Positions 14,333 to 35,261 of a stretch of DNA of 35,515 nt are shown in pieces. The stretch is from a virus, in IMG/VR virus record IMGVR_UViG_3300046517_001915, positions 1 through 35,515 of that record; one strand, 5' to 3'. The notes beneath the pieces were generated by a model, which saw only the letters and a program-made list of their open reading frames with translations, had not been told where the DNA came from and searched no databases. A program made the translations under genes and the position numbers. Numbering within the stretch: the first letter of the stretch is position 1; each line of letters begins with the position of its first letter.

Positions 14333-14335
14333 GGT

Positions 14336-17290: not shown

Positions 17291-17430
17291 TACTCTTCGG
17301 CGCCTTCGGCTTTATCCTCGGCGGCTGATTCTTCCTCGACGGGTTTGCCATAGCCCGCGAGCGCGGCTTCGTCTTCCGCATCCCACTCAGGGCGATACTG
17401 TTCCTGTGGCTCTTGCAATTGCGTCTGCAT
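17290..17430 (-). CDS. Very small acidic protein, 46 aa
   Basis: A short frame runs from ATG 17430 to TAA 17290-17292 and has a strong GAGGGGG ribosome site 4 bases before its start. It begins MQTQLQEPQEQYRPEWDAED, is highly acidic (about 15 Asp/Glu of 46) and has a Gln-rich head. It overlaps the end of the 711-aa gene by 44 bases and the start of the 984-aa gene by one base (TAATG), so it is placed to be translationally coupled. A role as assembly partner of an internal virion protein is possible but unsupported. Confidence 0.65.
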   Translation of the reverse strand: MQTQLQEPQEQYRPEWDAEDEAALAGYGKPVEEESAAEDKAEGAEE

Positions 17431-21185: not shown

Positions 21186-21616
21186 TACTGACCCCACCAA
21201 CCGGCCGCTTTACCGCCGCTGTAGATGCTCCCGGCCAGTTCTGCTGCGTTGGAAAAGTAGTTGCCGACCTGCTGGTATTGAACGGCTTTGTTTTCCAGAC
21301 TCGCCCCTTTCAGACGTTGTTGGGTCAGGTAGGCGTCGGCCGCAACGGCGCGATGAAATTGATCCTTGGTTTCCTGCATGACGGTGGCGGCAGAGCCGAC
21401 GCCGACATCAACCCCGGAGGCGGCATAGCGCGATGACTGTTGCCCCAGTGTGGTCAACTCCTGCTGGCGCATCGTGCGGAAATCTTCCTGCCAACTGAAC
21501 TTGATCGCGCGCGACTGGGAACGGCTGGCGTTGTTGGCCTTTTGCGCGGCGGATTTGCCGGCCACTCCTTGACCAATGGCCGCGACTCCTTCAATGACCG
21601 CTGGCACCCACGACAT
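21185..21616 (-). CDS. Internal virion protein (T7 gp14-like), 143 aa
   Basis: The N-terminal 25 residues are hydrophobic and Gly/Ala-rich (VIEGVAAIGQGVAG), followed by a long helix with KSAAQKANNASRSQS. A segment YAASGVDVGVGSAATVMQET is characteristic of gp14-like proteins ('a.sGv..g.gSa..v...t'). The C terminus is Gly-rich and ends GGKAAGWWGQ. T7 gp14 inserts into the outer membrane during ejection; this one is placed accordingly, after tail tubular protein B. The ATG overlaps the preceding stop as TAATG. Confidence 0.8.
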   Translation of the reverse strand: MSWVPAVIEGVAAIGQGVAGKSAAQKANNASRSQSRAIKFSWQEDFRTMRQQELTTLGQQSSRYAASGVDVGVGSAATVMQETKDQFHRAVAADAYLTQQRLKGASLENKAVQYQQVGNYFSNAAELAGSIYSGGKAAGWWGQ

Positions 21617-24093
21617 TACCCCTCCTCCGTCGTCATCAGGCCGAAGATCCCGGTCAGGTGCAGCGGCAGCGGCAAGTCTTGTTCGATGACAATTTTCCCG
21701 TCACTGCCGAAATTCGCGATCTTCACATCCCCCGAGAATAGGCCGGTCGCCGCGTCATAGAAATCATCCTGCGTTTTTTCATTCGGCCGGACGCCGTTCA
21801 ACTTGGGCATCGCCGAGGTGAGTAGCCGCATGACCGGCAACACCCAACGGATCTTCTGCGACTGACTCGTCATCTGCTGTTGGGATTCCAGGCGGTTGGG
21901 TTCGATGCGCGCGACGTAACCAAAACCAATTGAGACGGTGGAACCGAGCACCGTCTCCACATTGATCCGGCCCGCGTAATCGGGAATGAACTGACCCAGG
22001 TACACGCCATCCTCGACCACTTGCACGACCCGTCCGGCAAACCGCGCCGGCATCGTCAGTTGAGTATCCCCCGTTCCTGTCTGTTGCACGAACGAGTCCA
22101 GATGCACCGACCAGTCCTTACCGGCGTAAGGCGTCACCGTCCACGCCAGCGGCTCATCAAGATTGATCTGGTCGGCAAAGAACGTCGGAGTGGCATCGAA
22201 CAGGTTCTGGCTGGTGCCTTCCATGATTTCGAAACAGGGATGGTTTTCGAAGGCGCCGATCGCGGGGTTGTAGGTGTAGCGATTGACCAACGTAATCAGC
22301 GACATCCCATTGCCGTCATACCCCGTCAGGATGTCGATCACCGGGTCGCTGAGCGAATGTTTGTGCCAGGCCAGCGCATGGTAGGCCGTTTGACTCGGCG
22401 CATAACTCATGCCCATGAGTGCCCCATCCGTTCGCACGGCCCACAAATACGTCTCTGTACTCTGGAAACTCGCCAGTCGTTTCAGGCGATTCTTCATCGT
22501 GAAGAGGTGTTCGGCGAACGACGTCAGATCCCACGATTGCCAGGTTTGCAAATCGTTGGAGAATTGCACTTGGCGGATCTGCCGATCATCGATCGTCGGG
22601 AAGAACACATCGCCGTCGACTTCGGTGGCATGGATCTCCTTCGAACAGTTGTAACCGTTGATGCGGATGAACGAGACATTGGTCGGGGTCCACGGTCGGG
22701 CGAACTGTGCATACACCCCGGCACTGGTGCCAATGAACAGGATCTGCGCCGAGAAGATCCAGCGGATGATCGAGTTGTCGGCGCTCGCGAGACGAAACAG
22801 AATCCCGTCGTCGTCATTGACCCCGAGTGTGAAATCCAGACTTCGGGCAGACCCCACGATCATCGCCGCGGCGATGACGGAGGGCGCATCCGGTGGGCCA
22901 CTGCCGACGAGGCGTTGTTCGTGGAATGCCATCTCCCCTGGCCAACCTCGCCCTCGAGGCGAATAGGAATCGTCAATTGCCCAGGCCGCGACCGCAATGT
23001 CATAGTCTTTGTCTAACGGAATCGTTGCGCCGCGCGCGATCCAATAGGTCGCCGTATTCGCCCCCACACCGGGCTCGTTGGTCGACGCACCGATGTTCGT
23101 TGCGATACATTCGTAGTAAATCCCACCGTGCAGCATCAGAAATGGTCCCGACCACAGCGGTTCGGAATCGCCTTGTGCGTTGTTGGTTTTCTTGAATTCG
23201 TAGTTCGTGATCTCGGGGCTGACGACCGAGCCGCCCAACGAGAAGAATCCCAGAATTCCGGTCCCGTCGCCTTTGCTGCTGTAGTACTTGAACGATATGT
23301 TGTAGGTCGTGACAAACCCGACCGTGCTCGCAATGTCCACTACCGCACTGCCCGGCACCACGGCGCTGATGTACTTGTTCAGCACCTCCGCGATCCCGAC
23401 CGTGGTAGACCCGCCATCGGCTTGATAGAACGAACTGAGCACCAACTGCCCCTTCGAGGAGACGGCGTAAATACCCGAGACTTGGAAATAGGCATTACCG
23501 ACGACACCGGCTGCGGAATAGGTGATCTTCAGTGTCCACGTCGAGGTCTGAGAGATGGGCGAGGCGTCATCCTCGTAGGTGTAGAGCGGCGCGATGAAAT
23601 TGACCCCGGGATCGGTCAGCGCCACCGGCGTCTTGAACGTGATCTTGCGCGGCCGATGCGCGGGCGAATAGATAATGACGGTATCGTTGTACTGGGCAAC
23701 GCCCAGACTTTTCAGGTCGCTCAAGGTGTAGGGACTGACGTCGTGACCAATCACCTGGAAGGTCGGCAGTGCATACACCCAGGCTTCCCCCGGCACCATG
23801 AGCAGCACGATGTCGGCTGACTCACCCCGCAGGGCAAACGTCCGATAGCTCAGGCCATCGGTGGGGGCATTCGGAATATCGTCCGTGACGTCGCGGCCGA
23901 ACTTGAAGCCTTCACGTTTGTAGGCCCCGCCTTGCGGCAGCACAATCATGTTAGTCAGTTCCCGACAACCGGAACGGTAGACGTCGGCGGCGTTCATGCC
24001 GAACAACTGATCCCCAGCCACCCGGGAGCCGACCCGGGGAGAGGTTTCACCGAATATGAAATTCGTGATCAACGCATGGAAGCGCGCCGGCAT
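21616..24093 (-). CDS. Tail tubular protein B (T7 gp12-like nozzle protein)
   Basis: This 825-aa protein begins with a typical gp12-like N terminus: FIFGETSPRVGSRVAGDQL, then YRSGCRELTNMIVLPQGGAYKREGFKF, matching 'F..GelSPr...R.D...y..g...l.N.....G....R.gt.fv'. Later beta-rich blades include WAIDDSYSPRGRGWPGEMAFHEQRLVGSG, also a hallmark of the family. The protein forms the nozzle of the short tail in T7-type phages. It lies immediately downstream of tail tubular A with a one-base overlap (TAATG). The assignment is secure at the family level. Confidence 0.9.
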   Translation of the reverse strand: MPARFHALITNFIFGETSPRVGSRVAGDQLFGMNAADVYRSGCRELTNMIVLPQGGAYKREGFKFGRDVTDDIPNAPTDGLSYRTFALRGESADIVLLMVPGEAWVYALPTFQVIGHDVSPYTLSDLKSLGVAQYNDTVIIYSPAHRPRKITFKTPVALTDPGVNFIAPLYTYEDDASPISQTSTWTLKITYSAAGVVGNAYFQVSGIYAVSSKGQLVLSSFYQADGGSTTVGIAEVLNKYISAVVPGSAVVDIASTVGFVTTYNISFKYYSSKGDGTGILGFFSLGGSVVSPEITNYEFKKTNNAQGDSEPLWSGPFLMLHGGIYYECIATNIGASTNEPGVGANTATYWIARGATIPLDKDYDIAVAAWAIDDSYSPRGRGWPGEMAFHEQRLVGSGPPDAPSVIAAAMIVGSARSLDFTLGVNDDDGILFRLASADNSIIRWIFSAQILFIGTSAGVYAQFARPWTPTNVSFIRINGYNCSKEIHATEVDGDVFFPTIDDRQIRQVQFSNDLQTWQSWDLTSFAEHLFTMKNRLKRLASFQSTETYLWAVRTDGALMGMSYAPSQTAYHALAWHKHSLSDPVIDILTGYDGNGMSLITLVNRYTYNPAIGAFENHPCFEIMEGTSQNLFDATPTFFADQINLDEPLAWTVTPYAGKDWSVHLDSFVQQTGTGDTQLTMPARFAGRVVQVVEDGVYLGQFIPDYAGRINVETVLGSTVSIGFGYVARIEPNRLESQQQMTSQSQKIRWVLPVMRLLTSAMPKLNGVRPNEKTQDDFYDAATGLFSGDVKIANFGSDGKIVIEQDLPLPLHLTGIFGLMTTEEG

Positions 24094-24668
24094 TATCGAT
24101 ACGCGGTCAGTTGGGTATTGGTCACCATCCGCGTGCTGGATTCTTGCCCGTACTGATTCTCACACTCGGATTTTCTGAGTTCATACAACTGCACCATCGA
24201 GGTCAGCTTCCCTGATGAGCTCGTCAAGGTATAGGTCAGTTGTGCCGCCAAGAACGCCGAGAACGCTTGTACGAACGAGGCATCCATGACCGCTTCGATA
24301 TTCGGCAGTGTCCGGATGTAGCGGATCTGCACGCCGTCAGAGTAATTGCACAGAATCTGCTGACCTTCGCGGACCCAGCCATCCCGATCCGTCAGCGACT
24401 GACCGGCCTGGAATACTCCGAGCACCAAGGTACAGTCCTGCGGCAGATCAAAAGCGTTGGCATAACCAAACGGAGGCGCGGTCGAGGCGCCCAACTGGGC
24501 CGTCCGGGCGATTGCAAAGTTCGGTTTGATTTCTCGCAGGCACGCATCGCGCGTCAGTTGGTAGAAGACGTTACAGGCGCGGGCTTCGTTGGTGTCTTCA
24601 TCCAGCGACTGGATCGTCTTTTCAGCCAAGAGCATCAAAGCATGGTTGCAGATCCCGATCTCATCCAT
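24093..24668 (-). CDS. Tail tubular protein A (T7 gp11-like head-tail adaptor)
   Basis: This 191-aa protein has the gp11-like pattern: ICNHALMLLAEKTIQSLDEDTNEARACNVFYQLTRD, where 'a.N.AL..lG...i.sl...s..A..c...y...rd..l' is the family consensus, then W/R-less NFAIART and PFGYANAFDLPQDCTLVLGV ('f.yay.lP.dclrv..v'). It connects the portal to the tail nozzle. Its C-terminal helices (LTYTLTSSSGKL, VQLYELRKSECENQ) also match. ATG 24668 overlaps the previous stop as TAATG. Confidence 0.9.
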   Translation of the reverse strand: MDEIGICNHALMLLAEKTIQSLDEDTNEARACNVFYQLTRDACLREIKPNFAIARTAQLGASTAPPFGYANAFDLPQDCTLVLGVFQAGQSLTDRDGWVREGQQILCNYSDGVQIRYIRTLPNIEAVMDASFVQAFSAFLAAQLTYTLTSSSGKLTSMVQLYELRKSECENQYGQESSTRMVTNTQLTAYR

Positions 24669-24982
24669 TACCAGCGCCTCGAGCGGTTACGTTTTTTGTT
24701 CAGCGCCTTGTAGCGGATCTCAACCTCTTCCTCTGCGGCCGAAATCTGTTGTTGGGTCACGTGATACTTTTTGAAGTACTCGGCCCGATCGGCTTGCGAG
24801 ATGGACCGCTGATCCATCGTCACGATCACGTCGGCGATCTGGCTGATCGGAATGAAGTGGACCTCCTCAATCATGCACCGCTCGCAGGTGTTGAATCCCG
24901 GGATCAGCGTGATTCCCCCGCAGTACTGACAGAGTGTAGTCGAGATGGTTTGTACCACCTCACCGTTCACAACTTGCGCCAT
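24668..24982 (-). CDS. Zinc-ribbon hypothetical protein, 104 aa
   Basis: Two cysteine pairs (CQYC at 18-21, CERC at 33-36) form a likely zinc ribbon, followed by a beta strand (VIVTMDQRSIS) and a charged helix ending in a very basic tail (KKRNRSRRW). A GGAGGGG ribosome site precedes ATG 24982. It is the first gene after the intrinsic terminator. The zinc ribbon and basic tail suggest nucleic-acid or protein binding. Whether it is a virion protein is unclear. Confidence 0.72.
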   Translation of the reverse strand: MAQVVNGEVVQTISTTLCQYCGGITLIPGFNTCERCMIEEVHFIPISQIADVIVTMDQRSISQADRAEYFKKYHVTQQQISAAEEEVEIRYKALNKKRNRSRRW

Positions 24983-25034
24983 TCACCCCTCCAAAAAAAA
25001 GGCCCATAGCGGCAGCCATAGGCCTCAAAATCAC
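24960..25034 (-). CDS. Possible 24-codon ORF through the terminator
   Basis: A perfect AGGAGGT ribosome site (25042-25048) lies 7 bases before GTG 25032-25034. The short frame runs through the terminator stem and T-run and stops at 24960-24962, inside the next gene in another frame. The encoded peptide (Met/Ala/Gly-rich) is not recognised. It could be chance, or a leader peptide whose translation weakens termination. Listed only because the ribosome site is the strongest in the region. Confidence 0.25.
   Translation of the reverse strand: MILRPMAAAMGLFFGGVNGASCER
24993..25024 (-). terminator. Intrinsic terminator after the capsid gene
   Basis: Read on the minus strand, a 10-bp stem (with two G-U pairs) and a four-base loop starts with GGCCUAUGGC and closes with GCUAUGGGCC. 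It is followed immediately by eight U residues. It lies 36 bases past the capsid stop and before the zinc-ribbon gene, so it can reduce transcription into the tail genes relative to the capsid gene. It is the only convincing intrinsic terminator seen in the late operon. Confidence 0.88.
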
Positions 25035-25059
25035 GGAACAAACCTCCTGGGATGGAGGC

Positions 25060-25908
25060 TTAGGTTTCCGTGGTGTCCATCTGAACCACACCCTCATCCT
25101 CGATGCGCGTCGCGCCCATCGTCATCCGGCAGTACACCTGCCAGGCACCCGACTTGTCGGGACGTTGCAGGATGAACGAGTACATGTCCTCGTTGATGGC
25201 AAGGCCCATCGCCATCTTCTGGAACATGAAACAGGAACGGGTCGTGAGCGTCAGCGTCAACCGTTCCGAACGCACCCAGTTGAGTGCCAGGAAACTGGTG
25301 ACCTGACCCGAGGCCAGCGACCGCTGTACGTTGTAGTCGGCCGACGTGACGGCGGCCAGCTGCAGGACGTCCCTGAGTTGCTTCGATCCGTACACCAGCG
25401 TCCGGTCTTCGTCGTAGACGTCCGAGGCGTTGAGGATCTGCTGGGCGTTCAAGAGATGCACCAGTGTCATCGACGCGGCCAGTGCGTTCTTCTGCCCCGC
25501 CGGCAGTGCCACCGAAGCACCCGCACCGTCCGTTGCGTTACCGAGCGCAGCCGCGATGATCAGGTCATCTTTGGCACGGCCCAGTGCCATCGCACCGGCG
25601 ATCGCGTATTCGGATTCCGGGCTGATCAGCAAGCGAAGTTTGTCTTCACGGTCGACCAGATCGCCCCATTCCTTATCGGTTGGGGAGACGGCGCGACGTG
25701 AGTGCGGCGCATCGAGCACCGGGGTATCGGCATGGCGGGAGACTTTCGTCTGTGCCGCAACCTTCGCCAAGCGTTCGAAGTTGTAGGTGTTACCGACCAG
25801 CGATTCAACCCGCACCTTGTCGCCGATGCGTGAACCGCGCTGTTGGGAAAGTTGATACACATTCGCCTTGAACTCCGAGACGAATGCGTTTGAGATTGTG
25901 TTGGCGAT
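25060..25908 (-). CDS. Major capsid protein (podovirus type)
   Basis: The protein shows the pattern of a podovirus coat family: YQLSQQRGSRIGDKV, FERLAKVAAQTKVSRHADTP, HSRRAVSPTDKEWGDLVDREDKLRLLI, ALGRAKDDLIIAAALGNAT. A GTG start at 25858-25860 gives 266 aa but cuts off upstream in-frame codons reading ANTISNAFVSEFKAN, which match the family's usual N terminus. No ATG, GTG or TTG occurs between these and the in-frame TAG. The best start is ATC 25906-25908, 9 bases after a TAGGAG ribosome site, giving 282 aa. An AUC start is rare, so the 5' boundary is uncertain (the GTG also has an AAGG upstream). It is followed by a terminator. Confidence 0.88.
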   Translation of the reverse strand: MANTISNAFVSEFKANVYQLSQQRGSRIGDKVRVESLVGNTYNFERLAKVAAQTKVSRHADTPVLDAPHSRRAVSPTDKEWGDLVDREDKLRLLISPESEYAIAGAMALGRAKDDLIIAAALGNATDGAGASVALPAGQKNALAASMTLVHLLNAQQILNASDVYDEDRTLVYGSKQLRDVLQLAAVTSADYNVQRSLASGQVTSFLALNWVRSERLTLTLTTRSCFMFQKMAMGLAINEDMYSFILQRPDKSGAWQVYCRMTMGATRIEDEGVVQMDTTET

Positions 25909-26053
25909 TTTGGCGCGCTCCTAAAGTTTGTCGAAACCTTTCGGAACGCGCCCCGGAAACCGGACGTTGCCTTGCCTACGCGGCCAGCGATCGGTCTATC
26001 CCGATTGCCTTGCGGACCTTGCGGCACTCCGCGAGCGAAACTCTACCCCACGC
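25909..26053 (-). promoter_or_regulatory. Untranslated leader upstream of the capsid gene
   Basis: This 145-base stretch is the longest gene-free segment in the window. It contains the ribosome site TAGGAG (25918-25923) and a short CCGG-TTT-CCGG inverted repeat around 25950-25960. I see no sigma-70-like promoter boxes and no repeat of this sequence elsewhere, so a phage-specific promoter or processing site is possible but not demonstrated. Confidence 0.3.
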
Positions 26054-26191
26054 TTACGGCGGATTCAACGCGCCGATATTGGTGGGTGGTGCGGACACGG
26101 CTTGCGCTTGTGTCCACGTATTCAAATTCTGCGACGGTGTCGTGCGGTTGGAATCGCACGTGCCGAACCGCGCCAGCATTTTCTCGATCAT
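26054..26191 (-). CDS. Tiny hypothetical protein, 45 aa
   Basis: The frame runs from ATG 26191 to TAA 26054-26056 with a GAGG 9 bases upstream. It begins MIEKMLARFG and ends with a proline-rich APPTNIGALNPP. The amphipathic N terminus and Pro/Asn-rich tail do not match a family that I can name. It sits between two other tiny genes and the capsid gene. Moderate support only, from ribosome site and operon layout. Confidence 0.5.
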   Translation of the reverse strand: MIEKMLARFGTCDSNRTTPSQNLNTWTQAQAVSAPPTNIGALNPP

Positions 26192-26221
26192 GGAAGGTAG
26201 CCTCGTTTCGAATAACTGCGG

Positions 26222-26386
26222 TTACGACGTTTTTGCTGCATCAAGGGCACGGATGCGTTCCGCTTCTTCGGGCGTCTTTGCCCAATCGGGACCGACGTAG
26301 GTGACCTTGGGTTCTGCGTCACGGTAATGCTCCGGTTCGTCCTTCTGCCCAATCGCAGGCTGCAGTAGCAATTTTGGCTTGATCAT
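26222..26386 (-). CDS. Tiny hypothetical protein, 54 aa
   Basis: ATG 26386 overlaps the preceding stop as ATGA, and the frame ends at TAA 26222-26224. The sequence begins [14 protein letters not shown] and has an acidic/aromatic middle ([23 protein letters not shown]) typical of small head-module proteins that may bind the capsid. Function unknown, but tight coupling to its neighbour supports expression. Confidence 0.6.
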
Positions 26387-26508
26387 TTCTTTTTCCGTTT
26401 GTCAGCTTTGACGTATTCCTTGCCGACCTTTTTCGGGATGCCCAACGTACTTTTGCCGTGGGCTGCCGCCTCCATCGCACGGTGTTGTCGAGGGGTCTTG
26501 CTGGGCAT
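26383..26508 (-). CDS. Tiny basic protein, 41 aa
   Basis: The frame runs from ATG 26508 to TGA 26383-26385 and overlaps both neighbours (TGATG upstream, ATGA downstream). The sequence ([20 protein letters not shown], then [15 protein letters not shown]) is of a kind I recognise from many phages, where a short Lys/Arg-rich protein lies next to the capsid or portal genes. It is likely a DNA- or capsid-associated small protein; the exact role is unknown. Confidence 0.7.
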
Positions 26509-26879
26509 CAGAGCGTCTCCACGCGATGTATCCGATCTGTCTCGCCGTGATTGAATGATTCGTGGGCAATCGAGGCGTCTACCTCGTAGATTGCGCCTAA
26601 CGCGCAGTGGTAATCAACCCCACCAGCCCGCGAGATGCAGCCGTCATTGGTCGCCAGCACCGTGTGCGTCTTATGGTGGTGCGGTGGCTGATCGGTATGT
26701 AGGTGGATCTTCCCGCCCGGTTTGATCTTGATGTAGGCCACCTTGTTGTGGATCTGCACCCAGAAATCATCGTCAGCGGCGCCGAGCACCCCAATCACGT
26801 GGTTCCACCGCTGCCCTTCTGTGTACGCGAGTTCGGCGAGAATCCCATCGGGTGAGATGCGGCCAATCTCTAGGTACAT
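26508..26879 (-). CDS. Asp/Asn beta-hydroxylase-like protein (2OG-Fe(II) fold), 123 aa
   Basis: The start is taken as ATG 26879, inside the end of the previous gene; the upstream open frame is out of place. The body is a double-stranded beta-helix: [16 protein letters not shown] contains the HxD iron motif (H61, D63), a THTVLATN strand follows, then [24 protein letters not shown] gives the distal His (H106) and the Arg (R116) expected to hold 2-oxoglutarate. This is the arrangement of aspartyl/asparaginyl beta-hydroxylases. Such enzymes hydroxylate protein side chains. The target here is unknown; a neighbouring virion protein is conceivable. It is shorter than the usual cellular enzymes. Confidence 0.68.
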
Positions 26880-27490
26880 AACCCGGTGTTGGCGGCGTAG
26901 AAGTCCGCATTGCGCATCGAATAGCGCCGGATCGCGACAGAACGGATCTGCGCGGTACACGCCGCCGTGATCGGCGAGCGGATCGTCAGCGAAACGGGCG
27001 CGCCGGTTACCGAGGCGATCGCGATCGTGACGAAACCATCGTTACCCAGTGCAGCAAGCCACTGCGCCGCCGTGAAGGTCTGGATCGACGTCGCGCCGAG
27101 CAGTACCGTCAATGAACCCACGCTCAAGTTGCCTTGGATCCGCAGCACCAGCTTTTCTGCGGCAACGCCTAAGAACGTCGCGGGACTGGGCTGTGCTTGA
27201 AGTCCGGGTGGATACAGCGTGAACACGACATCGCGCGCGGCGGCGGGCGCGGCGGCGGCGATCTCGACTTGCCGCAACGCGAGGTTGTACGTCCAGTCGG
27301 TCGGCACCACCACACCAATCGGCACTTGTGAGGAGGTATAGATCGGGACGGCGTTCTGGTTCACCCACTCCTCGATCATGTCGACCACGGGCGCCGCCGG
27401 GGTGCCCACCGCACCGTGCGCGGTGAAGTAGCTATCCCCGGACCATTTCTCGATCTTCGTGTAATTGACGTTCGCAACCCCAGTACTCAT
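26870..27490 (-). CDS. Head-module structural protein, 206 aa
   Basis: A beta-rich protein without catalytic motifs. Blocks such as PIYTSSQVPIGVVVPTDWTYNLALRQVEIA and LVLRIQGNLSVGSLTVLLGA, followed by APVSLTIRSPITAACTAQIRSVAIR, suggest a virion surface or decoration protein. The RBS GAGGAGG lies before ATG 27490, which overlaps the scaffold stop as ATGA. Located between the scaffold and the hydroxylase-like gene, so head decoration is a reasonable but unproven idea. Confidence 0.65.
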   Translation of the reverse strand: MSTGVANVNYTKIEKWSGDSYFTAHGAVGTPAAPVVDMIEEWVNQNAVPIYTSSQVPIGVVVPTDWTYNLALRQVEIAAAAPAAARDVVFTLYPPGLQAQPSPATFLGVAAEKLVLRIQGNLSVGSLTVLLGATSIQTFTAAQWLAALGNDGFVTIAIASVTGAPVSLTIRSPITAACTAQIRSVAIRRYSMRNADFYAANTGLCT

Positions 27491-28335
27491 GACGCCTCCT
27501 CAAATAGAAAGTCTTTACCCGGGGCCAATGGCGCTTTCCCTTCGGCGATACGTCGCAGCCGCATCATCTCCTCGAGCGCCGCGTTCTTCGTCTTGCGTCC
27601 GACCTCGCCCATCCCGAGTTCCGACGTCGGCTTGTTGAACGCATGATCCGGGTTCCTGCGGATCTCGCTGATCTTGATCGACGCTTCCTCCGGGGTTTCG
27701 ATGAACTTGAGCGCCGGCGTCAGATCACCCATACCACGCTCCTGAAACAGTTTACCGACTTCCGCCAATGCAATGATGGTTTCCGCACTGGGATTGGCGG
27801 CCAGCTGGTCGACCAATGCCTGGCCGCCAAACTTCTTCGCCGCGGCGAGCGCGCGGTCCTTGGCCGAGGCCAACCCCGCGTCGCCATACTTGGCCTTGAC
27901 GATCGAATCGACCTTGCCGAACCGTTCCTGCTCGGCGGCCTTCGACGCCAACCGCGCTTCGATCTGACCCTTGGCGAAGGATTCGAATTGATTCGGCGCC
28001 AAGCCCTGTTCGTGCGCCCACTTCTTCCAACCGTTCACCTCGTCCTGCGTGACGACAGTCTCTGCTCCTGCGGGCGGTGCTTTCAGTTCGTACGCTTCCG
28101 GCTTTTCCGGGCGCACAAACTCATGGAAGGTTTCACGTGGCACCATGCCGACCTGCTGCAACTTCGCCTTGAACGCGGTCTTGTCGGCATCACTCGCGCC
28201 TTCCCCAGGAATGCGAATGGAATTGCCGACCTGCGACTGATACATCAGCGCGCTTTTCACGATCGCCGCCAGATCCGGCGCTTCCTTGACTAACGTCGAT
28301 TCGTTCAGTTCATCGGACAGACCGTCAATTTTCAC
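27487..28335 (-). CDS. Scaffolding protein, 282 aa
   Basis: A helical, charged protein with no cysteine, rich in Ala, Glu and Lys, located between the portal and capsid genes as expected for a scaffold. The N-terminal third contains IPGEGASDADKTAFKAKLQQVGMVP and EAYELKAPP, a pattern common to phage scaffolds ('iP.e.ad.ee...f...lg.P..p..Y'). The rest is coiled-coil-like (ARLASKAAEQERFGKV, KNAALEEMMRLRRIAEG). The GTG start at 28335 follows GAGGAG by 9 bases and overlaps the previous gene by 11 bases. Confidence 0.85.
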   Translation of the reverse strand: MKIDGLSDELNESTLVKEAPDLAAIVKSALMYQSQVGNSIRIPGEGASDADKTAFKAKLQQVGMVPRETFHEFVRPEKPEAYELKAPPAGAETVVTQDEVNGWKKWAHEQGLAPNQFESFAKGQIEARLASKAAEQERFGKVDSIVKAKYGDAGLASAKDRALAAAKKFGGQALVDQLAANPSAETIIALAEVGKLFQERGMGDLTPALKFIETPEEASIKISEIRRNPDHAFNKPTSELGMGEVGRKTKNAALEEMMRLRRIAEGKAPLAPGKDFLFEEAS

Positions 28336-28519
28336 TGATGAAACTCCTCATGTAGTCGATCATCTCGAATTGACCGACGTTGTATGCCATCGTCAACGGA
28401 TCGGTACTGAACAGCGTCTTGGCAAACCGCCGCTCGAGTTCGTTCAGCACCCACTTGCCATCGGGCGACCCCAACAGCCGCCCGGCGATCACTTCGAACT
28501 CTTGTTCGTCTGGGCTCAT
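28325..28519 (-). CDS. Bbp19-like phage protein, 64 aa
   Basis: A small helical protein with features of the Bbp19 family: a helix with GKWVLNELERRF, then a linker (AKTLFSTDPLTMAYNVGQFEMIDYM). The family consensus 'G..vL.dL........d....a...G.r.v...i' fits. Members typically lie beside portal genes in podoviruses; the function is unknown. ATG 28519 overlaps the portal stop as ATGA. Confidence 0.75.
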   Translation of the reverse strand: MSPDEQEFEVIAGRLLGSPDGKWVLNELERRFAKTLFSTDPLTMAYNVGQFEMIDYMRSFISEN

Positions 28520-30213
28520 GCGGCTTGCGGCACCATCCGGGTGACCGCCCCCTTCATCTGCGCATCATTGCCCGCCTGGCCGATGTTCTTCGCCGCCTCC
28601 GATCCCATCAGCGCCGACTGTTCATCCATTGCCTGCTGTTTCGCATCGTTGCGCGTTTTCCGTACCGCCTCGACTTCGTCATTCGAACGTAACACTTTGG
28701 CCGGCACACCCAAGAGATTGGCTTTGTACCGCTGCGCTTTGTCCAGATCGATGATGTCCATCGCCTCTTCGATGCCGGAATTCTTCAACGCCAGCGCATC
28801 GCCCATGAAGCGGTCGATCGCATCGGTCTCCACTTGCTTCGCCGCTTGCGCCATCGGACCCACGTACTCGACGTCGAGCGCCTGCTCCTGCAGCCCCTCT
28901 GGCATCGGCAGAAACGCTTTCTTGCGGTACATGATGTTGAAACACCGCTGCAACATCGGATCCAGCACATCGGGTTTCAATTGCACGACCACAGGGCCGA
29001 GCGAGCGATACACCGCCTCAGAGCGTTTAGCGATTTCATAGGCGGTCATCTGTCCGACCTGTTCGCGCGCGGGCAACTCGAGTGCGTGGTATTTGAAGAT
29101 GTCGCGGATCTGGAAGCGTTTGTCTTCGAGTTCCGTCATGTGGTGATTCAGATCCGGCGCAAACTCCCAAGGTTTTGACTCCTCGAGGTTGCGAACGACT
29201 GTCACACCACCCGAGGCAAGGTTCGCATCCCCAACGATGTTGTTCTGTTTGGTCTTGATCGGTGGGTCGATCTGTTTCGCCCATGCGGCCAGTTCCAGCC
29301 GTTCGGCTTCGTTCACGGAACGGACGGTGGGCAACGCTCTTTCGCCCGGCCCATAACCCATGATGTCGTCAGACTTCTTCCGCCAGCGGCCAATGAAGGA
29401 CGCCTGTTCGTACGTGCCGCCATCCTCGACGATTTCCGTCGATTCCACCGATACCCACACCTCTGCCCAGGGCCGCTCGAGCGGCACTAACGGTCCTTCC
29501 GGGCGCGTCGATTTACCGTCGACTTTTGGCAAGGTGCGCTTGAAGCGACACTTCAGCGCCGCGAACACCTTATCGGGATCGTTCTGGTAGGCATCGCGGA
29601 TCTTCTCCGGGCACTTGTCGCCGAACCGCGTCAGCCATTGTTCCGCCGTCAGGTCGAACTTCTCGAATACCTGATCGATCAGGCCTTTCGAAGATTCCGC
29701 CAATCCCAACGAGCCCAGATGTAACGAACGGAACATGAATCCCCGAAAGTCATCGGTCTCACTGTCGGAGTCGTACTCGGCTTCCTTCTCGTCCACCTCC
29801 GTACCGGCCGAACCGAACGCGCCGAGATCCAGATAGAACTGGCCCATGATCATGTCGAAGTTGGATTCTCTGATCGCTTGCCTTAGTTTGTCCTGGCAGT
29901 CATCGAGCCATTCCCGGTTGGCGTCGACGTCTTCGATGTCTTCATCCCGAAACTTCAGCCCAAACCACACCGACGAGGGATTGGTCAGCGCCTCATGCAA
30001 ACGGTTGGACAGCCGGTCGTTGGCTTCCATTGCGGTCGAATCGTAGATCTTCGATGAAACATCCGTGCCCGGCGTCAGGTGTGTCGTGAACCCCGACCGC
30101 TGCGACGGCATGATGTAGTAGGCGATGTCGTTCCATCTGAGGCGCCAATTGCCGAGCAATCCCCAGCGATGGTCGTAGAGCTTCTTCAGCCGGGTCGCGT
30201 CGTAGGTGAGCAT
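28516..30213 (-). CDS. Portal / head-tail connector protein
   Basis: The start is ATG 30213 (overlapping the previous stop as TGATG), giving 565 aa; the open frame extends upstream but without support. The sequence matches the T7-type connector family: LRWNDIAYYIMPSQ, YDSTAMEANDRLSNRLHEALTNPSSVWFGLKF, WLDDCQDKLRQAIRESNF and a central YLDLGAFGSA ('D.gvfGta.l'). The C-terminal half includes the wing/stem region (MTAYEIAKRSEAVYRSLGPVV, 'T..Ei..r..e....lgp...rl'). It forms the DNA-entry dodecamer at one capsid vertex and binds the terminase. The family is secure. Confidence 0.92.
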   Translation of the reverse strand: MLTYDATRLKKLYDHRWGLLGNWRLRWNDIAYYIMPSQRSGFTTHLTPGTDVSSKIYDSTAMEANDRLSNRLHEALTNPSSVWFGLKFRDEDIEDVDANREWLDDCQDKLRQAIRESNFDMIMGQFYLDLGAFGSAGTEVDEKEAEYDSDSETDDFRGFMFRSLHLGSLGLAESSKGLIDQVFEKFDLTAEQWLTRFGDKCPEKIRDAYQNDPDKVFAALKCRFKRTLPKVDGKSTRPEGPLVPLERPWAEVWVSVESTEIVEDGGTYEQASFIGRWRKKSDDIMGYGPGERALPTVRSVNEAERLELAAWAKQIDPPIKTKQNNIVGDANLASGGVTVVRNLEESKPWEFAPDLNHHMTELEDKRFQIRDIFKYHALELPAREQVGQMTAYEIAKRSEAVYRSLGPVVVQLKPDVLDPMLQRCFNIMYRKKAFLPMPEGLQEQALDVEYVGPMAQAAKQVETDAIDRFMGDALALKNSGIEEAMDIIDLDKAQRYKANLLGVPAKVLRSNDEVEAVRKTRNDAKQQAMDEQSALMGSEAAKNIGQAGNDAQMKGAVTRMVPQAA

Positions 30214-30611
30214 CAGGCGGCAGCGGTCTGTTTCTCTTCCTGCCACTCATTCCACGGCACTTGCGCGCGTGTCTTGTACGAGTCGATGTGCGCGAGCGCC
30301 GCCATGTCGTCAATCTTCACCGTTGAATTGCCGAGGTTGTGGATCGACACGATCAGGTTCTCGACCGTCTTGGGACCGATGAAGATTTGCTTGCGCAGGT
30401 ACAGTCCGCGCTCCTCGAGTTCGTACACCGGGGACAGCTCTACTGTCACGCCATCGGGAATTTCCATCGTCAGCCCCGTCATGAACCGCTCGACGGTCGA
30501 GTTGTTCACGTAACCCTTGTTCGGCGACATCGACCGATACAGATAGACCTTGCCGGACGACGGCGGCGGGATGATGTCCTGCGCCATGTGGTAATTCAGT
30601 TTGCCGTTCAT
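30213..30611 (-). CDS. dUTPase-fold-like protein, catalytic site not conserved, 132 aa
   Basis: The start at ATG 30611 follows GGGGGAG and is preferred to the longer open frame. The middle of the protein (about residues 38-110) has the order of strands seen in trimeric dUTPases: FMTGLTMEIPDG, VYELEERGLYL, IVSIHNLGNSTVKI, DDMAALAHI, equivalent to 'tGl...iP.g', 'rsgla.k.gi', 'v...N.....v.I..Gd.iaQl'. The Asp of the usual catalytic 'GxID..Y.G' motif is missing (FIGPKTVENL), so it is probably not an active enzyme. It lies between terminase and portal. Structural or assembly use of the fold is inferred. Confidence 0.5.
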   Translation of the reverse strand: MNGKLNYHMAQDIIPPPSSGKVYLYRSMSPNKGYVNNSTVERFMTGLTMEIPDGVTVELSPVYELEERGLYLRKQIFIGPKTVENLIVSIHNLGNSTVKIDDMAALAHIDSYKTRAQVPWNEWQEEKQTAAA

Positions 30612-31306
30612 AGACTCCCCCGATAGCGCGTCACCTGATTCTGTACGTTCGGTATCCAGCCATTGATGCCGCGTACGCAATACCGCATTGCATCCATGAT
30701 GTGATCGTTGACCTTCACTACTTTGCCCTTCTCATCTCGCCTGTACAACCGGAACTCTTCGAAGAAAGCCGCCAGATGGCGGAACACCTTGAGCCGTCCC
30801 GTCGTCAGTCGTTCGTACACATCGAAGATCCCCGCCTCAACGGTGTTGTCAGCGGGCTCGACTCGCAGGTATTTCTCGTAGATATCGAGGATCGCTTCGC
30901 CGTCCTTGATCTTGCCGGCGCCGGCCGCTGAGGGGTCAATGTAGCCGGGCCATTCGCCGCGCTGTTGAATCGCACTGATGTGAACGGCAGGCTCGGCTTG
31001 GCCCCGCTTGTACACATCGTACACATACACGGTGTCCGTGCCCATGTCGCGCGCGCACCAGACAGCAGCAGTTGCGTTCCAACCGACATCGAGCCCATAG
31101 CCGCGAGTGAACATGTTGGGGATTTCGAAACCATCGACCTTGATCTCATCCTCGTCAATCGGATAGATCGCACCGGACCCCAGCATCGGAATGCCTTGGG
31201 TTCTGGCTTTGATCTGATACGGCGGAATCGTCTTGATCAGCCGCTGTTTCTCGTCCTCACTCAGATGTGGGGCATCATCCCATCCTGCGTTGATCACCCC
31301 GACCAC
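30608..31306 (-). CDS. terL: Large terminase, C-terminal (nuclease) half of a split gene
   Basis: This separate frame encodes the second half of a large terminase. It starts in the segment WDDAPHLSEDEK, then PMLGSGAIYPI, then the RNase H-like nuclease with YGLDVGWN (D73), YIDPSAAG (D124) and NDHIMDAMRY (D201 or D205), the three acidic positions expected. GTG 31306 is chosen because it shares one base with the previous stop (TAGTG); TTG 31321 is an alternative. The ATPase half is encoded at 34533-35261, more than 3 kb upstream. The nuclease cuts concatemers during packaging. Confidence 0.88.
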   Translation of the reverse strand: MVGVINAGWDDAPHLSEDEKQRLIKTIPPYQIKARTQGIPMLGSGAIYPIDEDEIKVDGFEIPNMFTRGYGLDVGWNATAAVWCARDMGTDTVYVYDVYKRGQAEPAVHISAIQQRGEWPGYIDPSAAGAGKIKDGEAILDIYEKYLRVEPADNTVEAGIFDVYERLTTGRLKVFRHLAAFFEEFRLYRRDEKGKVVKVNDHIMDAMRYCVRGINGWIPNVQNQVTRYRGSL

Positions 31307-31914
31307 TATTGCACCAGCCAACCCACCACGGAATCGATCGTATACGCCGCCGAGGCACCGCCGTTCAACGACAGTCCAATGTACTGACCCGCCAGCGCGG
31401 TGTTGTCGAAGGTGGCTGAGACGATTCTGTCGCCGTCACCCATCTGCGTGCCGGTGAATCCCATGTGCGCAACGATCACGCCCGAGGCGCTGACGGTTCG
31501 CACGAGCGCACTGACGAGCATGGTGTTGACCGACGCCGTCGCCGCTTGAGCCACAGTCTGCGCCAGCGCCGCGCGCGAGGTATCGGCCGTTGATTGCGCC
31601 GAGCCGATCCTGACGGTGGTCGCAACGAGCGCCACACCCGCAGCCGTTTTCTCGATGCCGACCAGCCACTGATACAACTGCCCGACCTGCATTCCATACG
31701 CGGGAATCAGGATGCTCGAGCCGGTGAGGTAAGTGTCAGCGGCAAAGCCGGTCAACTGGCCCACCCCGTAGTTCTTCGACAGCGTCCCGCCGCGGTGGAT
31801 ACCGCCATCGTCCGTCTGCACCAATTTCTTTGCGGTGGAGTCGATCCAGATGACGGATTTACCCGCCGCCGGTGTGGCGGGTGCCACTTGGTTGTCGATC
31901 AGAATATCGGCCAT
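31306..31914 (-). CDS. Tail-associated structural protein, 202 aa
   Basis: The N terminus (PAAGKSVIWIDSTAKKLVQTDDGG) resembles the short beta modules that head many phage tail or fibre proteins ('g.a.lwid...k.l...dd.G'), followed by LTGSSILIPAYGMQVGQLYQWLVG and an Ala/Thr-rich segment. The last third is a beta-rich end ('GLSLNGGASAAYTIDSVVGWLV'). It immediately precedes the nuclease half of the terminase and follows the tail fibre-like gene. ATG 31914 lies 1 base from the previous stop. Structural role is inferred. Confidence 0.72.
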   Translation of the reverse strand: MADILIDNQVAPATPAAGKSVIWIDSTAKKLVQTDDGGIHRGGTLSKNYGVGQLTGFAADTYLTGSSILIPAYGMQVGQLYQWLVGIEKTAAGVALVATTVRIGSAQSTADTSRAALAQTVAQAATASVNTMLVSALVRTVSASGVIVAHMGFTGTQMGDGDRIVSATFDNTALAGQYIGLSLNGGASAAYTIDSVVGWLVQ

Positions 31915-33228
31915 CTATCCCCCTCTCCCGGCGAGCACCAGTCGGCCGACCGGCGCAAGATCAAACACGAACAATTCACCTGTCCCAATCACGGTTGCCC
32001 GCGCACTGCCCAGCAGACTAGCACGCTTGTACTGCAGCGCGTACGCATCGGCGTCGATCTGACAGGAACCCAAGGCGTAGTAGCCGAGTAGCACCGGATT
32101 GGTGCCGAGCACACTGAGGCGCGCGCCTGCTTTGGCCGTCAATCGATTGGCATCGGATACCGCGAATCTCAACGGAATCGTGAGCGCGCTGGTATCGGGT
32201 AACACAAACGGATCGCCAAAATCCTGTACGGTCAACGGCGCCGGAATTGCCCACCGATTATCGTCGCGTAGATAGTTCGTCCCGTCCGGTGTGCCCGTCG
32301 GTGTGACCTGCGACAACGTACCTAGGCCGTGGACGCCGCTGGTCAATGCCGCATGTGTGGCAATGCCGCCGGCTGCCTCAAAAGCCGTTGTATTCTGCGC
32401 AGCCGCCGTGCCCAGTGTTGGCTTGTTCAATATCTGCGAATCGCCCGCGACCGAGTTCCAGTCGGCGTTGACGTTCACTTCCGCACCGGTGGCAATCCCG
32501 CCCAACTTCGTATCGAGCGCCGTGGTGTAACTCGCGGTCGTGCCGTCAAGCACCGACGTATGCGCCTGCACATCGGTGCCGATGACCAGACCCAACGTCG
32601 CGCGCGCATTCACGGCCGCCGCATCATCGACCAGGGTTGCACCAAACGCGCTGATACCGTGTGTCGTGGTAATGGCGGCATGGGTCGCGATCGCGCCCGC
32701 CGCTTCGAAGTCGGTGGTGTTCTGCGCGGCGGCCGTGCCCAAAGTCGGTTTGTTGAGGATCTGCGAATCCCCAGCACCTGAGGTCCAGTCCGCATTCACA
32801 TTGACTTCAGCGCCGGCCGCGATGCCGGCCAACTTCGAATCCTTCGCCGCAGTAAAGCTGGCATCATTGGCGTCGAGGACCGCGGTGTGCGCCTGGACGT
32901 CAGTGCCGATCACGAGGCCCAGGGATGTCCGTTGCGCCGCGGCGTTGGCACCCGCCATGACCGCTCGACCCGCCGTGGTCGCAACGCCCGTGTCGATGCT
33001 GAAGACCGTCCCAGCCCCAGAGACAACGATGTCGCCTTTGTCGCCGTCCGAAACGCCGCCGCCGGTCGTGTAGTAGCCCAATCCCGTCCACGCTGTCGAT
33101 CCATCACCGAGTTTGATCTTGCCGGTATCGGATTCGGTCGCGAGTTCACCCGCCACCAGCACGGGATTGTTGGCCGTGTAGTTGGCGGCGGTGTCGCGAC
33201 GGGGAACGATGTAGCCTTGAATGCTCAT
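31915..33228 (-). CDS. Tail fibre-like protein with tandem repeats, 437 aa
   Basis: The N terminus has the motif VLVAGELATESDTGKIKLGDG, typical of the phage tail 'GE.a..tDt..l..GdGs..w..l' domain found in fibres and hyaluronidase-like proteins. Residues 103-187 and 212-296 are two copies of an 85-residue module (each begins LGLVIGTDVQAHT) with a period of 109 residues, probably forming a repetitive shaft. The C-terminal third is beta-rich. It belongs with the 202-aa protein as a tail/adhesin pair located inside the split terminase region. ATG overlaps the previous stop as ATGA. Confidence 0.78.
   Translation of the reverse strand: MSIQGYIVPRRDTAANYTANNPVLVAGELATESDTGKIKLGDGSTAWTGLGYYTTGGGVSDGDKGDIVVSGAGTVFSIDTGVATTAGRAVMAGANAAAQRTSLGLVIGTDVQAHTAVLDANDASFTAAKDSKLAGIAAGAEVNVNADWTSGAGDSQILNKPTLGTAAAQNTTDFEAAGAIATHAAITTTHGISAFGATLVDDAAAVNARATLGLVIGTDVQAHTSVLDGTTASYTTALDTKLGGIATGAEVNVNADWNSVAGDSQILNKPTLGTAAAQNTTAFEAAGGIATHAALTSGVHGLGTLSQVTPTGTPDGTNYLRDDNRWAIPAPLTVQDFGDPFVLPDTSALTIPLRFAVSDANRLTAKAGARLSVLGTNPVLLGYYALGSCQIDADAYALQYKRASLLGSARATVIGTGELFVFDLAPVGRLVLAGRGG
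32341..32595 (-). repeat. Tail fibre shaft module, copy 2
   Basis: Encodes residues 212-296, the second copy of the 85-residue module. The DNA copies have diverged much more than the proteins, suggesting an old duplication kept for structure. Confidence 0.85.
32668..32922 (-). repeat. Tail fibre shaft module, copy 1
   Basis: Encodes residues 103-187 of the tail fibre-like protein. It aligns without gaps to the second copy (32341-32595), for example in LGLVIGTDVQAHT, GAEVNVNADW and SQILNKPTLGTAAAQNT, with a period of 109 residues. Confidence 0.85.
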
Positions 33229-33413
33229 GCAGTTGAATCAATCGCGCCGATGATGGGTGTTCCCGCAGGCGCAGGCGCTGAACTCAAACCACCGATCACG
33301 GGATTACCGCCGCCAATGGGACCACCACTAACCGGTGCCCCATGACCCCGCTGCAACGACCGCAGCTGCGTCTGCAGCGTTCGAACCTGCAGCGGTATAC
33401 TGACTTCAGCCAC
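33225..33413 (-). CDS. Small Gly/Pro-rich hypothetical protein, 62 aa
   Basis: The frame is open to ATG 33464, but GTG 33413 has a GGAG ribosome site 7 bases upstream and overlaps the previous stop, so it is chosen. The N terminus is a short helix (LQVRTLQTQLRSLQRGHG), followed by Gly/Pro/Ala repeats (PVSGGPIGGGNPVIGG and APAPAGTPIIGAI). This is probably a flexible accessory to the tail fibre. No known family recognised. Confidence 0.55.
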   Translation of the reverse strand: MAEVSIPLQVRTLQTQLRSLQRGHGAPVSGGPIGGGNPVIGGLSSAPAPAGTPIIGAIDSTA

Positions 33414-33678
33414 CTTTGCGCTCCAAGTTGTCGATTCTCTGCTCAAGTCGGCCGACCCGATCATTGAGCCTATTCAAATCATCTTCGAGGCGCGTCACAC
33501 GGATCCTTGATTCAACTGCCATTGGCGTGGTCCTGCCCGACTCGAGCGCCTCGATGCGATATGTCAGAAATCCCCATAACACCAATCCCGCAAAGCCAAT
33601 GACGCTACCAAGGATGCCGAGCACCACGCCCAATGAGACGGTCTCACTAAGGAATGTCCCGCTATTTTCTTCACCCAC
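33406..33678 (-). CDS. Membrane-anchored coiled-coil protein, spanin- or holin-like, 90 aa
   Basis: GTG 33678 directly follows the previous stop. A hydrophobic segment (about residues 15-40: LGVVLGILGSVIGFAGLVLWGFL) is followed by a charged coiled coil (RVTRLEDDLNRLNDRVGRLEQRIDNLE). One transmembrane helix plus a coiled coil is the design of inner-membrane spanins (Rz-like), although many other small phage membrane proteins share it. It follows a lipoprotein gene, which would be the natural partner (o-spanin). The pairing is inferred. Confidence 0.55.
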   Translation of the reverse strand: MGEENSGTFLSETVSLGVVLGILGSVIGFAGLVLWGFLTYRIEALESGRTTPMAVESRIRVTRLEDDLNRLNDRVGRLEQRIDNLERKGG

Positions 33679-33894
33679 TCATGGAGCATCAGGGTTACGA
33701 ATCGCTGGTGCTGTCCCCGTCGGCCAACACTCTTGTTGGAAGTGACCGCTGCCACCGATGCCGGATAGCGTTGTCGCCAGCTGCGCGTCGATGGTGGTGT
33801 GGCAGTTCTGCTTCACGTCCTCGAGCAGTTTCTGAAAATCGCCGTTGGCGCATCCCGACAACAGGAACGGAAACAGGATGAGTGCCAGCTTCAT
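33679..33894 (-). CDS. Small lipoprotein, possible o-spanin, 71 aa
   Basis: The N terminus MKLALILFPFLLSGCANG is a clear lipoprotein signal with lipobox LLSGC, processed at Cys-15. The mature part has two further cysteines and a helix (FQKLLEDVKQNC) but is not strongly proline-rich as in many Rz1 proteins. The gene is followed immediately by a membrane coiled-coil gene, so a spanin pair is possible. A Gram-negative host is implied. Confidence 0.65.
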   Translation of the reverse strand: MKLALILFPFLLSGCANGDFQKLLEDVKQNCHTTIDAQLATTLSGIGGSGHFQQECWPTGTAPAIRNPDAP

Positions 33895-34094
33895 GGCGTT
33901 TTCCAGAAGTTGTCGAATCGACCGGAGAGCGCCGCGATCGCCGCCATCAGGCCGATGATCACAAAGATGATGGTGATGATCTTGTCGGGCATCACGATGC
34001 CGAGCAGCCCCAACACCCAGACGGTCACGTAGTACAGCAGCACCACGAACGCGACCGCGAGCAGAATTCCTAGCACGCGAACGAACAGGTTCAT
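33891..34094 (-). CDS. Holin-like two-helix membrane protein, 67 aa
   Basis: Two hydrophobic helices are visible (about residues 5-32, LGILLAVAFVVLLYYVTVWVLG, and 38-56, IITIIFVIIGLMAAIAAL), joined by a short turn (MPDK) and ending in a polar tail. This is the topology of class II holins. It is one of two such proteins in the cassette, and which (if either) makes the lethal pore cannot be decided. It overlaps both neighbours as ATGA. Confidence 0.65.
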   Translation of the reverse strand: MNLFVRVLGILLAVAFVVLLYYVTVWVLGLLGIVMPDKIITIIFVIIGLMAAIAALSGRFDNFWKTP

Positions 34095-34393
34095 TCTAAG
34101 CCTCCAGTGCCAGTCGGCGGATCAGTCGGTGGGTGCGATGGCAACGCATTGCTTGCGATCTCGCGCAGCACACCCGTGGTATCGGCAGTGCCTTTGGTCG
34201 TCCCGAACCACCATTGTTGGGAGTTCGAGTGTTGATTCACGAGCGCACCGATGACCGACGCAAACAGCGCGATCATCGCTTCATTCGATTTGGAGGCGTC
34301 AAAGAAAAGCAGGATGTAAACGATTGCGCCAAGGCCCAGGACGATCATCATCACGTTGATCAGCGTCAGGTAATACCGTTGGCTGTTCTCCAT
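34091..34393 (-). CDS. Holin-like membrane protein, 100 aa
   Basis: The ATG at 34393 overlaps the preceding stop as TGATG (a GTG at 34396 would add one residue). A hydrophobic helix (LINVMMIVLGLGAIVYILLFF) is followed by a second weaker one (AMIALFASVIGALVNQ), then HSNSQQWWFG and a Pro/Gly-rich tail. This resembles phage holins that carry a short 'NqhsnsqqWwfGtt.gt' segment near the C terminus. The gene sits in the lysis cassette. Role is a good guess, not certain. Confidence 0.68.
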   Translation of the reverse strand: MENSQRYYLTLINVMMIVLGLGAIVYILLFFDASKSNEAMIALFASVIGALVNQHSNSQQWWFGTTKGTADTTGVLREIASNALPSHPPTDPPTGTGGLE

Positions 34394-34605
34394 CACGCCG
34401 GCACCATGGGGGCAGCCTTCGCGCCCGTTGACTCATCGTGTTTGCATTTCATCTCGACGTGGCCGCACTGCTCGCACGTCGTCGTGCATTCGGATCCGGG
34501 TGTGGACTTGCCGGCGAGCTCACACCCACTGATCAAGGCATACGCCCCCCAGGTAAGAAGTGCAGCACCGTATCGGACATGCCGAGCAATGGTGTGAACG
34601 TACAA
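34393..34605 (-). CDS. Small lipoprotein overlapping the end of terL-N
   Basis: The frame begins at TTG 34605 (weak ribosome site) and lies within the terL ATPase frame for 73 bases in another phase. Its N terminus has basic residues (RHVR), a hydrophobic stretch (YGAALLTWGAYALIS) and a lipobox-like ISGC. The mature part holds a CxxC pair (CEQC) and three further cysteines, hence a possible metal site. The start is uncertain because no ATG or GTG is available. A structural or lysis-related role is possible. Confidence 0.5.
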   Translation of the reverse strand: MYVHTIARHVRYGAALLTWGAYALISGCELAGKSTPGSECTTTCEQCGHVEMKCKHDESTGAKAAPMVPA

Positions 34606-35261
34606 ATCAGTTGGCCCGGCTTCCGCCCCTCTTCGGTCGACATCGTTCTAATCTGACACTCGGAGTAGATCTGCATGTCGGGCTCCTCGTCAAGCCATAT
34701 CAGGTGCATCGCCGTCCCTTGAAAGGTCTTGCGGCCCTGTTCGTACGACTTCAGCTGCAGTACTGAGGGCGGCAAGGTCGGATGGTCGTCGCGGCGGATC
34801 CACGCGGTATCGATGCCACCACCACCACCCCGTCGAGGCAGGATGTCGACAATGAGGTGCTTGGGTATCAGTCCCGAGCCCCAGTCACCGCGATCGCCGA
34901 ACAGCACCGGCTGAATGATGTCGCGCACGGTGTCTGCGGTGTCTCCTGCGGCCCAGCCCTTGATCGGTGTATCGATCCTGATCCCAGGCCACCATGACGG
35001 ATACAGGCCCGTCAGATGCACCATCGTCTCGTAGCCGCCGGCGATCGTCTTGCCACAACGGTTGGCACTGATCAGAGCTCGCTCTGCCTCGGTCTTGCCC
35101 ATCTCCCAAAACGCGAAGTGCTTCTTGTACTCCCGCCAACCCAGGGGACCGGACTCCGGATACAGATCGAGGTAGTGCGTGTACTTCAGCGTTGCGGCGT
35201 GGTCCTCGAGCGCGTGCAGCAGTTCGAGGAGTTCCTCGTCAGTCGCGGCTGCGAGGTTCAC
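34533..35261 (-). CDS. terL: Large terminase, N-terminal (ATPase) half of a split gene
   Basis: This 242-aa frame carries the complete terminase motor ATPase: Walker A SANRCGKT (residues 65-72), Walker B LIWLDEE (188-193) and the coupling motif TFTPL (221-225). It ends at LPGGRMP, exactly where intact terminases of this type pass from the ATPase to the nuclease domain. The nuclease half lies at 30608-31306, with eight other genes between them. The GTG start at 35261 overlaps the previous stop as GTGA. The motor would translocate DNA into the capsid; it presumably assembles with the nuclease polypeptide. Confidence 0.9.
   Translation of the reverse strand: MNLAAATDEELLELLHALEDHAATLKYTHYLDLYPESGPLGWREYKKHFAFWEMGKTEAERALISANRCGKTIAGGYETMVHLTGLYPSWWPGIRIDTPIKGWAAGDTADTVRDIIQPVLFGDRGDWGSGLIPKHLIVDILPRRGGGGGIDTAWIRRDDHPTLPPSVLQLKSYEQGRKTFQGTAMHLIWLDEEPDMQIYSECQIRTMSTEEGRKPGQLICTFTPLLGMSDTVLHFLPGGRMP

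Follow-up and report, generated by a model that had tools for sequence, protein, structure and literature searches.

TerL, the large terminase subunit, is regarded as a single-chain hallmark motor and is much used as a phylogenetic marker. In phage annotation, the ATPase and nuclease of a terminase are at times given as distinct genes, and isolated cases of such genes may be known; in herpesviruses, the gene for the TerL homologue UL15 comprises two exons, with other genes lying in the intron. The D6E TerL is ordered as core, lid, 12-residue linker and nuclease, and its lid is assigned a role in coupling ATP hydrolysis to movement via the P-loop arginine (PMC5727402). Introns interrupt terL in ICP1 and SIOphi, often near homing nucleases (PMC10448857, PMC11878797), and Aeh1 nrdA and phage 25 gene 43, a DNA polymerase gene, each yield an enzyme in two polypeptides that cooperate (PMC2988022).

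Here we describe a P22-type terL present as two genes in a metagenomic virus contig (the whole IMG/VR record IMGVR_UViG_3300046517_001915, 35,515 bases; hereafter, the window). Sequence comparison and structure prediction lead us to read it, with a probability of roughly three in four, as a natural two-gene TerL whose chains most likely reassemble, and in which the split came first and the intervening genes entered the gap later.

Results

As a preliminary description of the window had proposed, terL is divided between an intact ATPase half (terL-N, 35261-34533) and an intact nuclease half (terL-C, 31306-30608), both on the minus strand, with eight same-strand ORFs between them; a P22-type TerL is one polypeptide, whereas here two ORFs lie 3.2 kb apart. 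terL-N encodes a 242-aa P22-type terminase ATPase core ending in LPGGRMP, with Walker A (SANRCGKT), Walker B (LIWLDEE) and TFTP (TFTPL) motifs, and its predicted structure (pLDDT 92.6) has the P74-26 TerL ATPase domain as its top PDB match. terL-C encodes the predicted last ATPase strand (VVGVINA), the lid region (WDDAPHL...QGIP) and an RNase H-like nuclease with its triad of acidic residues intact, matched by family profile to the P22 nuclease 4DKW (E 5e-53). The Pfam model Terminase_6N (E 3.5e-12), which represents an ASCE ATPase and its Walker A, Walker B and coupling motifs, is itself divided, with columns 5-147 on terL-N and columns 165-212 on terL-C, where the RNase H-like nuclease model Terminase_6C (E 1.4e-9) follows. 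The reported overlap of each start with a neighbouring stop is also present: the GTG of terL-N shares bases with the preceding stop (GTGA), and the GTG of terL-C, at 31306, overlaps the TAG of the upstream gene by one base (TAGTG).

The impression that both halves are intact rather than decaying is borne out by comparison with the related contig L002, against which dN/dS is 0.067 for the ATPase half, 0.047 for the nuclease half and 0.083 for the portal gene. Purifying selection on both halves is thus strong, and since the window and L002 are both split, it worked on genes already separate. A six-frame profile search found no further piece of terL in the contig or its relatives, those that bridge the ends of the window included.

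Where the preliminary description went astray was in placing the break at the domain boundary. Pfam, an alignment to the D6E TerL and the predicted fold of an intact homologue (L005, pLDDT 88) all position it ahead of both the lid and the last ATPase strand. In the L005 model, residues 28-286 match the P74-26 ATPase domain, its core and lid together, and residues 286-468 match the P22 nuclease domain 4DKW (Z 24.8). terL-N extends three residues beyond the counterpart of residue 235 and terL-C resumes at about 245, so that the break falls in the loop 236-245, which follows helix 226-231 and precedes strand 246-251. The predicted cut is thus inside the ATPase domain, some 45 residues before the start of the nuclease domain, and because of this position we infer that terL-C carries the lid helices and, from ASCE strand order, the last strand of the ATPase sheet.

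The eight genes between the halves, all on the minus strand, begin with a small lipobox ORF (LISGC; gene 1, 34393-34605) that starts at a TTG within the end of terL-N, or at a TTG overlapping the terL-N stop, and is absent from L002. Genes 2 (34091-34396; phrog_785, E 0.036) and 3 (33891-34094) encode small membrane proteins with weak holin matches, and the L002 homologue of gene 3 (80% aa identity) begins with ATGA at the terL-N stop. Gene 4 (33679-33894), encoding a small lipoprotein, and gene 5 (33406-33678), encoding a weakly XhlA-like membrane plus coiled-coil protein, have homologues after the portal gene in another relative, L176 (70% and 43% aa identity, respectively). The small protein of gene 6 (33225-33464) is conserved in L002, gene 7 (31915-33228) encodes a tail-fibre-like protein with an N-terminal Mtd_N domain, and gene 8 (31306-31914), with no assigned function, has its stop one base into the nuclease start. 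The block had been described as one of lysis and tail genes; the tail part stands, given the Mtd_N match (E 5e-10), while the lysis part is weak, with holin matches at PHROG E values of 0.036 and 0.05 and no endolysin found among the eight genes by PHROG search. Family profile searches found no HNH or GIY-YIG gene among the eight.

Gene 7 and its L002 counterpart (L002:3275-4030) have their N-terminal ~52 residues alone in common. The C-terminus of the L002 protein differs from the window's, being collagen-like Gly-X-Y beyond the N-terminus, and receptor-binding turnover typically looks so.

Downstream of the terL halves lies the portal (head-tail connector) gene (28516-30246, minus strand; phrog_332, E 1e-104), where the late operon is intact. 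The genome is mosaic, its P22-type terL occurring together with a T7-type portal, tail tubular proteins and tail-fibre N-terminus (12326-30246). The ends of the window (1 and 35515) are bridged by about 3.5 kb of relative L083 (L083:2859-6373), and because this contig connects both ends, circular permutation of a nearly complete genome is probable. No terS was recognised in the window; a 105-aa ORF in L083 (5898-6215), which matched no family, is a candidate.

Relatives with the same gene order, which the preliminary description had thought worth seeking, come from two other samples. L002 (IMG/VR contig 3300046642_000538) holds both halves, and L003 and L083 (3300046535 contigs) hold one half each; all three share 93-94% protein identity with the window and 84-86% DNA identity around terL. 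They keep the split with a differing block, the L002 interval measuring 4.0 kb and lacking the first two block genes. Further out, the window, L002, L175 and L176 form one clade, all split (support 97-100), and L175 has a small ORF within the terL gap. In L176, the halves overlap by ATGA with no insert and are followed by the portal gene, a small membrane protein gene, another small protein gene and the homologues of block genes 4 and 5. The view that the block split the gene therefore does not hold, as this sister clade member is split without an insert. Because part of the block, moreover, lies after the portal gene there, these gene orders are most simply read as a split that preceded the arrival of block genes in the gap, with the reverse movement, out of the gap in L176, being possible.

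In both L002 and L003, which come from two samples and are 99% alike, an in-frame TGA follows nine codons of the nuclease half (VVGVINAGW*DDAPHL), at 5149-5151 in L002 and at the equivalent position in L003. Restarting at the next ATG would drop the last ATPase strand and the lid, and were the TGA fixed, the nuclease chain of these contigs would begin MLGSG, the same start as the P22 nuclease domain construct. The 31 codons past the L002 TGA are conserved (5 nonsynonymous and 11 synonymous changes), and for this reason the stop may be recent or bypassed; it could thus reflect recent decay or readthrough, or else be a sign that the last strand and lid are dispensable.

To place the window among its relatives, terL loci were drawn from five collection scans plus three phage records, yielding 284 distinct loci with both domains. 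Of these, 183 are intact and 101 split, a proportion (36%) that is not an unbiased frequency because sampling began from a split query. All 101 splits fall between the two profiles and none within either. Hardly any residues are missing at the break, a point on which the preliminary description had asked for an alignment: split chains reach a median of 6 residues past the ATPase profile and 4 ahead of the nuclease profile, equalling the intact linker (median 9), and so lose almost nothing. No split locus having the relevant column lacks Walker A, Walker B, TFTP or the first nuclease Asp. A split intein was considered and rejected, since extensions this short leave no room for intein halves.

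On a FastTree tree there are at least 32 changes between split and intact, irrespective of direction (about 79 with shuffled labels), falling to 22 (shuffled, about 65) when branches below support 90 are collapsed and to 14 (shuffled, about 53) when those below 95 are. Split terL is found at 22 loci in genomes of named strains, and in the two such genomes checked, Vibrio galatheae and Neptunomonas marina, the next genes are a portal gene and a capsid-like one. In cultured phages with near-full coverage, among the matches listed, terL is one continuous match or nearly so. The terL match in KR296688, a phage-collection record, looks like two pieces. The uncultured podovirus MW202785.1 has two neighbouring genes, each annotated 'large terminase protein'.

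The gap between the conserved domains ranges from 19 bp, a stop/start overlap, to 5.8 kb, and is below 160 bp in 52 of the 101 split loci. Four-base stop/start overlaps occur in 55 of the 101, compared with 42% for the out-of-frame stops of intact terL, an enrichment modest enough that we dropped the overlap as proof of coupling.

Inserts in the gaps of relatives include HNH nucleases, BrnA antitoxin, HipA, bestrophin, DUF1643 and LPD23, with an HNH gene between the halves at five loci (L014, L046, L213, L241 and L296). Pairs of relatives differ at the junction: the halves of L160 overlap, and in its relative L296 the HNH gene occupies this junction, whose sequence is visibly duplicated; L086 has no insert and its close relative L085 a small ORF; and the Acidovorax loci L266, L267 and L262 have common flanks and different cargo. 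Direct repeats flanking the insert are clear in L014 alone, where the HNH insert (L014:1345-1960) lies between 13-bp copies (CGATGCCTGAAGT), and a diverged duplication is visible by eye in L296. In prophages, the terL junction seems to serve as a site for cargo such as nucleases, toxin-antitoxin genes and others. L014 has a further, small insertion in its nuclease half, at W|DD, and this half must therefore be read from another start. In L119, a 2.8-kb interval between the halves (L119:6744-9480), including a HipA-like gene, is on the opposite strand, and with cargo so oriented it is less evident how the downstream half would be expressed.

Discussion

We propose that in the window the ATPase core is made as one polypeptide and the last ATPase strand, lid and nuclease as a second, from separate genes, and that the two co-expressed (co-translated) chains would associate non-covalently, via the ATPase sheet and the lid, into one TerL subunit. 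The split would have arisen as a short stop/start overlap in the exposed loop that joins the ATPase core to its final strand, and phage-native genes, encoding small membrane proteins, lipoproteins and a tail-fibre-like protein, would later have come to occupy the gap. The same cut in about a third of the relatives examined suggests a natural two-chain motor, and the plausibility that the preliminary description had granted such a motor is strengthened by intact, selected genes, the lack of a second terL and relatives with the same order. Reassembly into a TerL subunit with packaging activity is, on this evidence, the most likely outcome. Weighing against it are the in-frame TGA of L002 and L003, the opposite-strand cargo of loci such as L119, and the continuous or nearly continuous terL match of all listed cultured phages with near-full coverage.

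Several other explanations deserve weighing. The likeliest rival, in our judgement still an unlikely one, is that the halves act independently, as a nuclease-less packaging ATPase and a separate headful or maturation nuclease; separate genes are free to drift apart, and the P22 nuclease domain folds stably in isolation (4DKW). Against this, the last ATPase strand and the lid appear to sit on the nuclease chain, and published TerL models require the lid for coupling hydrolysis to DNA movement (PMC5727402), which should leave the ATPase chain incomplete as a motor by itself. That the halves are instead exons, rejoined when a self-splicing intron removes the interval, is the principal alternative known for terL and gains some plausibility from the terL introns of ICP1 and SIOphi (PMC10448857; PMC11878797) and from the HNH genes in the gaps of five relatives. 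We nonetheless consider it very improbable: Rfam, in a search that could overlook a divergent intron, revealed no intron family in the window (gathering level), its block (E<=1) or 17 other split loci, a group I intron would not fit into the 52 gaps shorter than 160 bp, and both halves have their own starts.

Equally hard to sustain is the idea of a defective phage whose terL is decaying, with the halves as its remnants. Decay would accord with the in-frame TGA that interrupts the nuclease half in L002 and L003, but dN/dS is low and comparable to that of the portal gene, the catalytic motifs are complete, the cut recurs at one site in many lineages and the downstream late genes are intact. As the window is a metagenomic contig, an assembly artefact must also be weighed; we rejected it as most improbable of all, as separately assembled contigs of other samples, at 84-86% DNA identity, show the same split and order, and 22 named-strain genomes have a split terL.

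Beyond the natural two-gene TerL proposed for the window, it is conceivable, at somewhat less than even odds, that a large P22-type group regularly uses a two-chain motor whose ATPase fold is completed in trans, the nuclease chain contributing a strand and the lid, and whose gene junction is a place where cargo genes repeatedly dock. Naturally split genes of this kind, cut between ATPase core and lid, would allow a direct test of whether packaging needs a covalently joined core, lid and nuclease. Split terL may also explain poorly annotated ATPase-only and nuclease-only families, such as phrog_31467, and terL-based surveys and completeness estimates could miscount phages that have it. The preliminary description knew of no standard example of this arrangement, and we too found nothing on point concerning a split TerL in the literature searched, but within this terL family the split itself is common (101 of 284 loci). 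To our knowledge, neither recurrence at one site inside the ATPase domain nor its use as a cargo site has been described.

In comparison with known systems, the window shares family, motifs and ATPase and RNase H-like folds with the P22 gp2-type TerL (Terminase_6N/6C), but terL is one continuous gene in P22 and EBPR podovirus 1 and two genes with eight between them here. Herpesvirus UL15 is likewise a terminase gene interrupted by unrelated genes, though eukaryotic splicing rejoins it, and in ICP1 and SIOphi splicing restores a single chain, whereas Rfam detected no intron in the window. A further parallel is offered by Aeh1 nrdA and phage 25 gene 43, in which an essential phage enzyme is split into two cooperating polypeptides, as the chains here would be; those splits were made by inserted genes, mostly homing endonucleases, whereas the window block is without HNH or GIY-YIG genes. 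MW202785.1, annotated without comment, is split at the same position as the window, with a gap between the conserved domains of 163 bp as compared with about 3.2 kb in the window.
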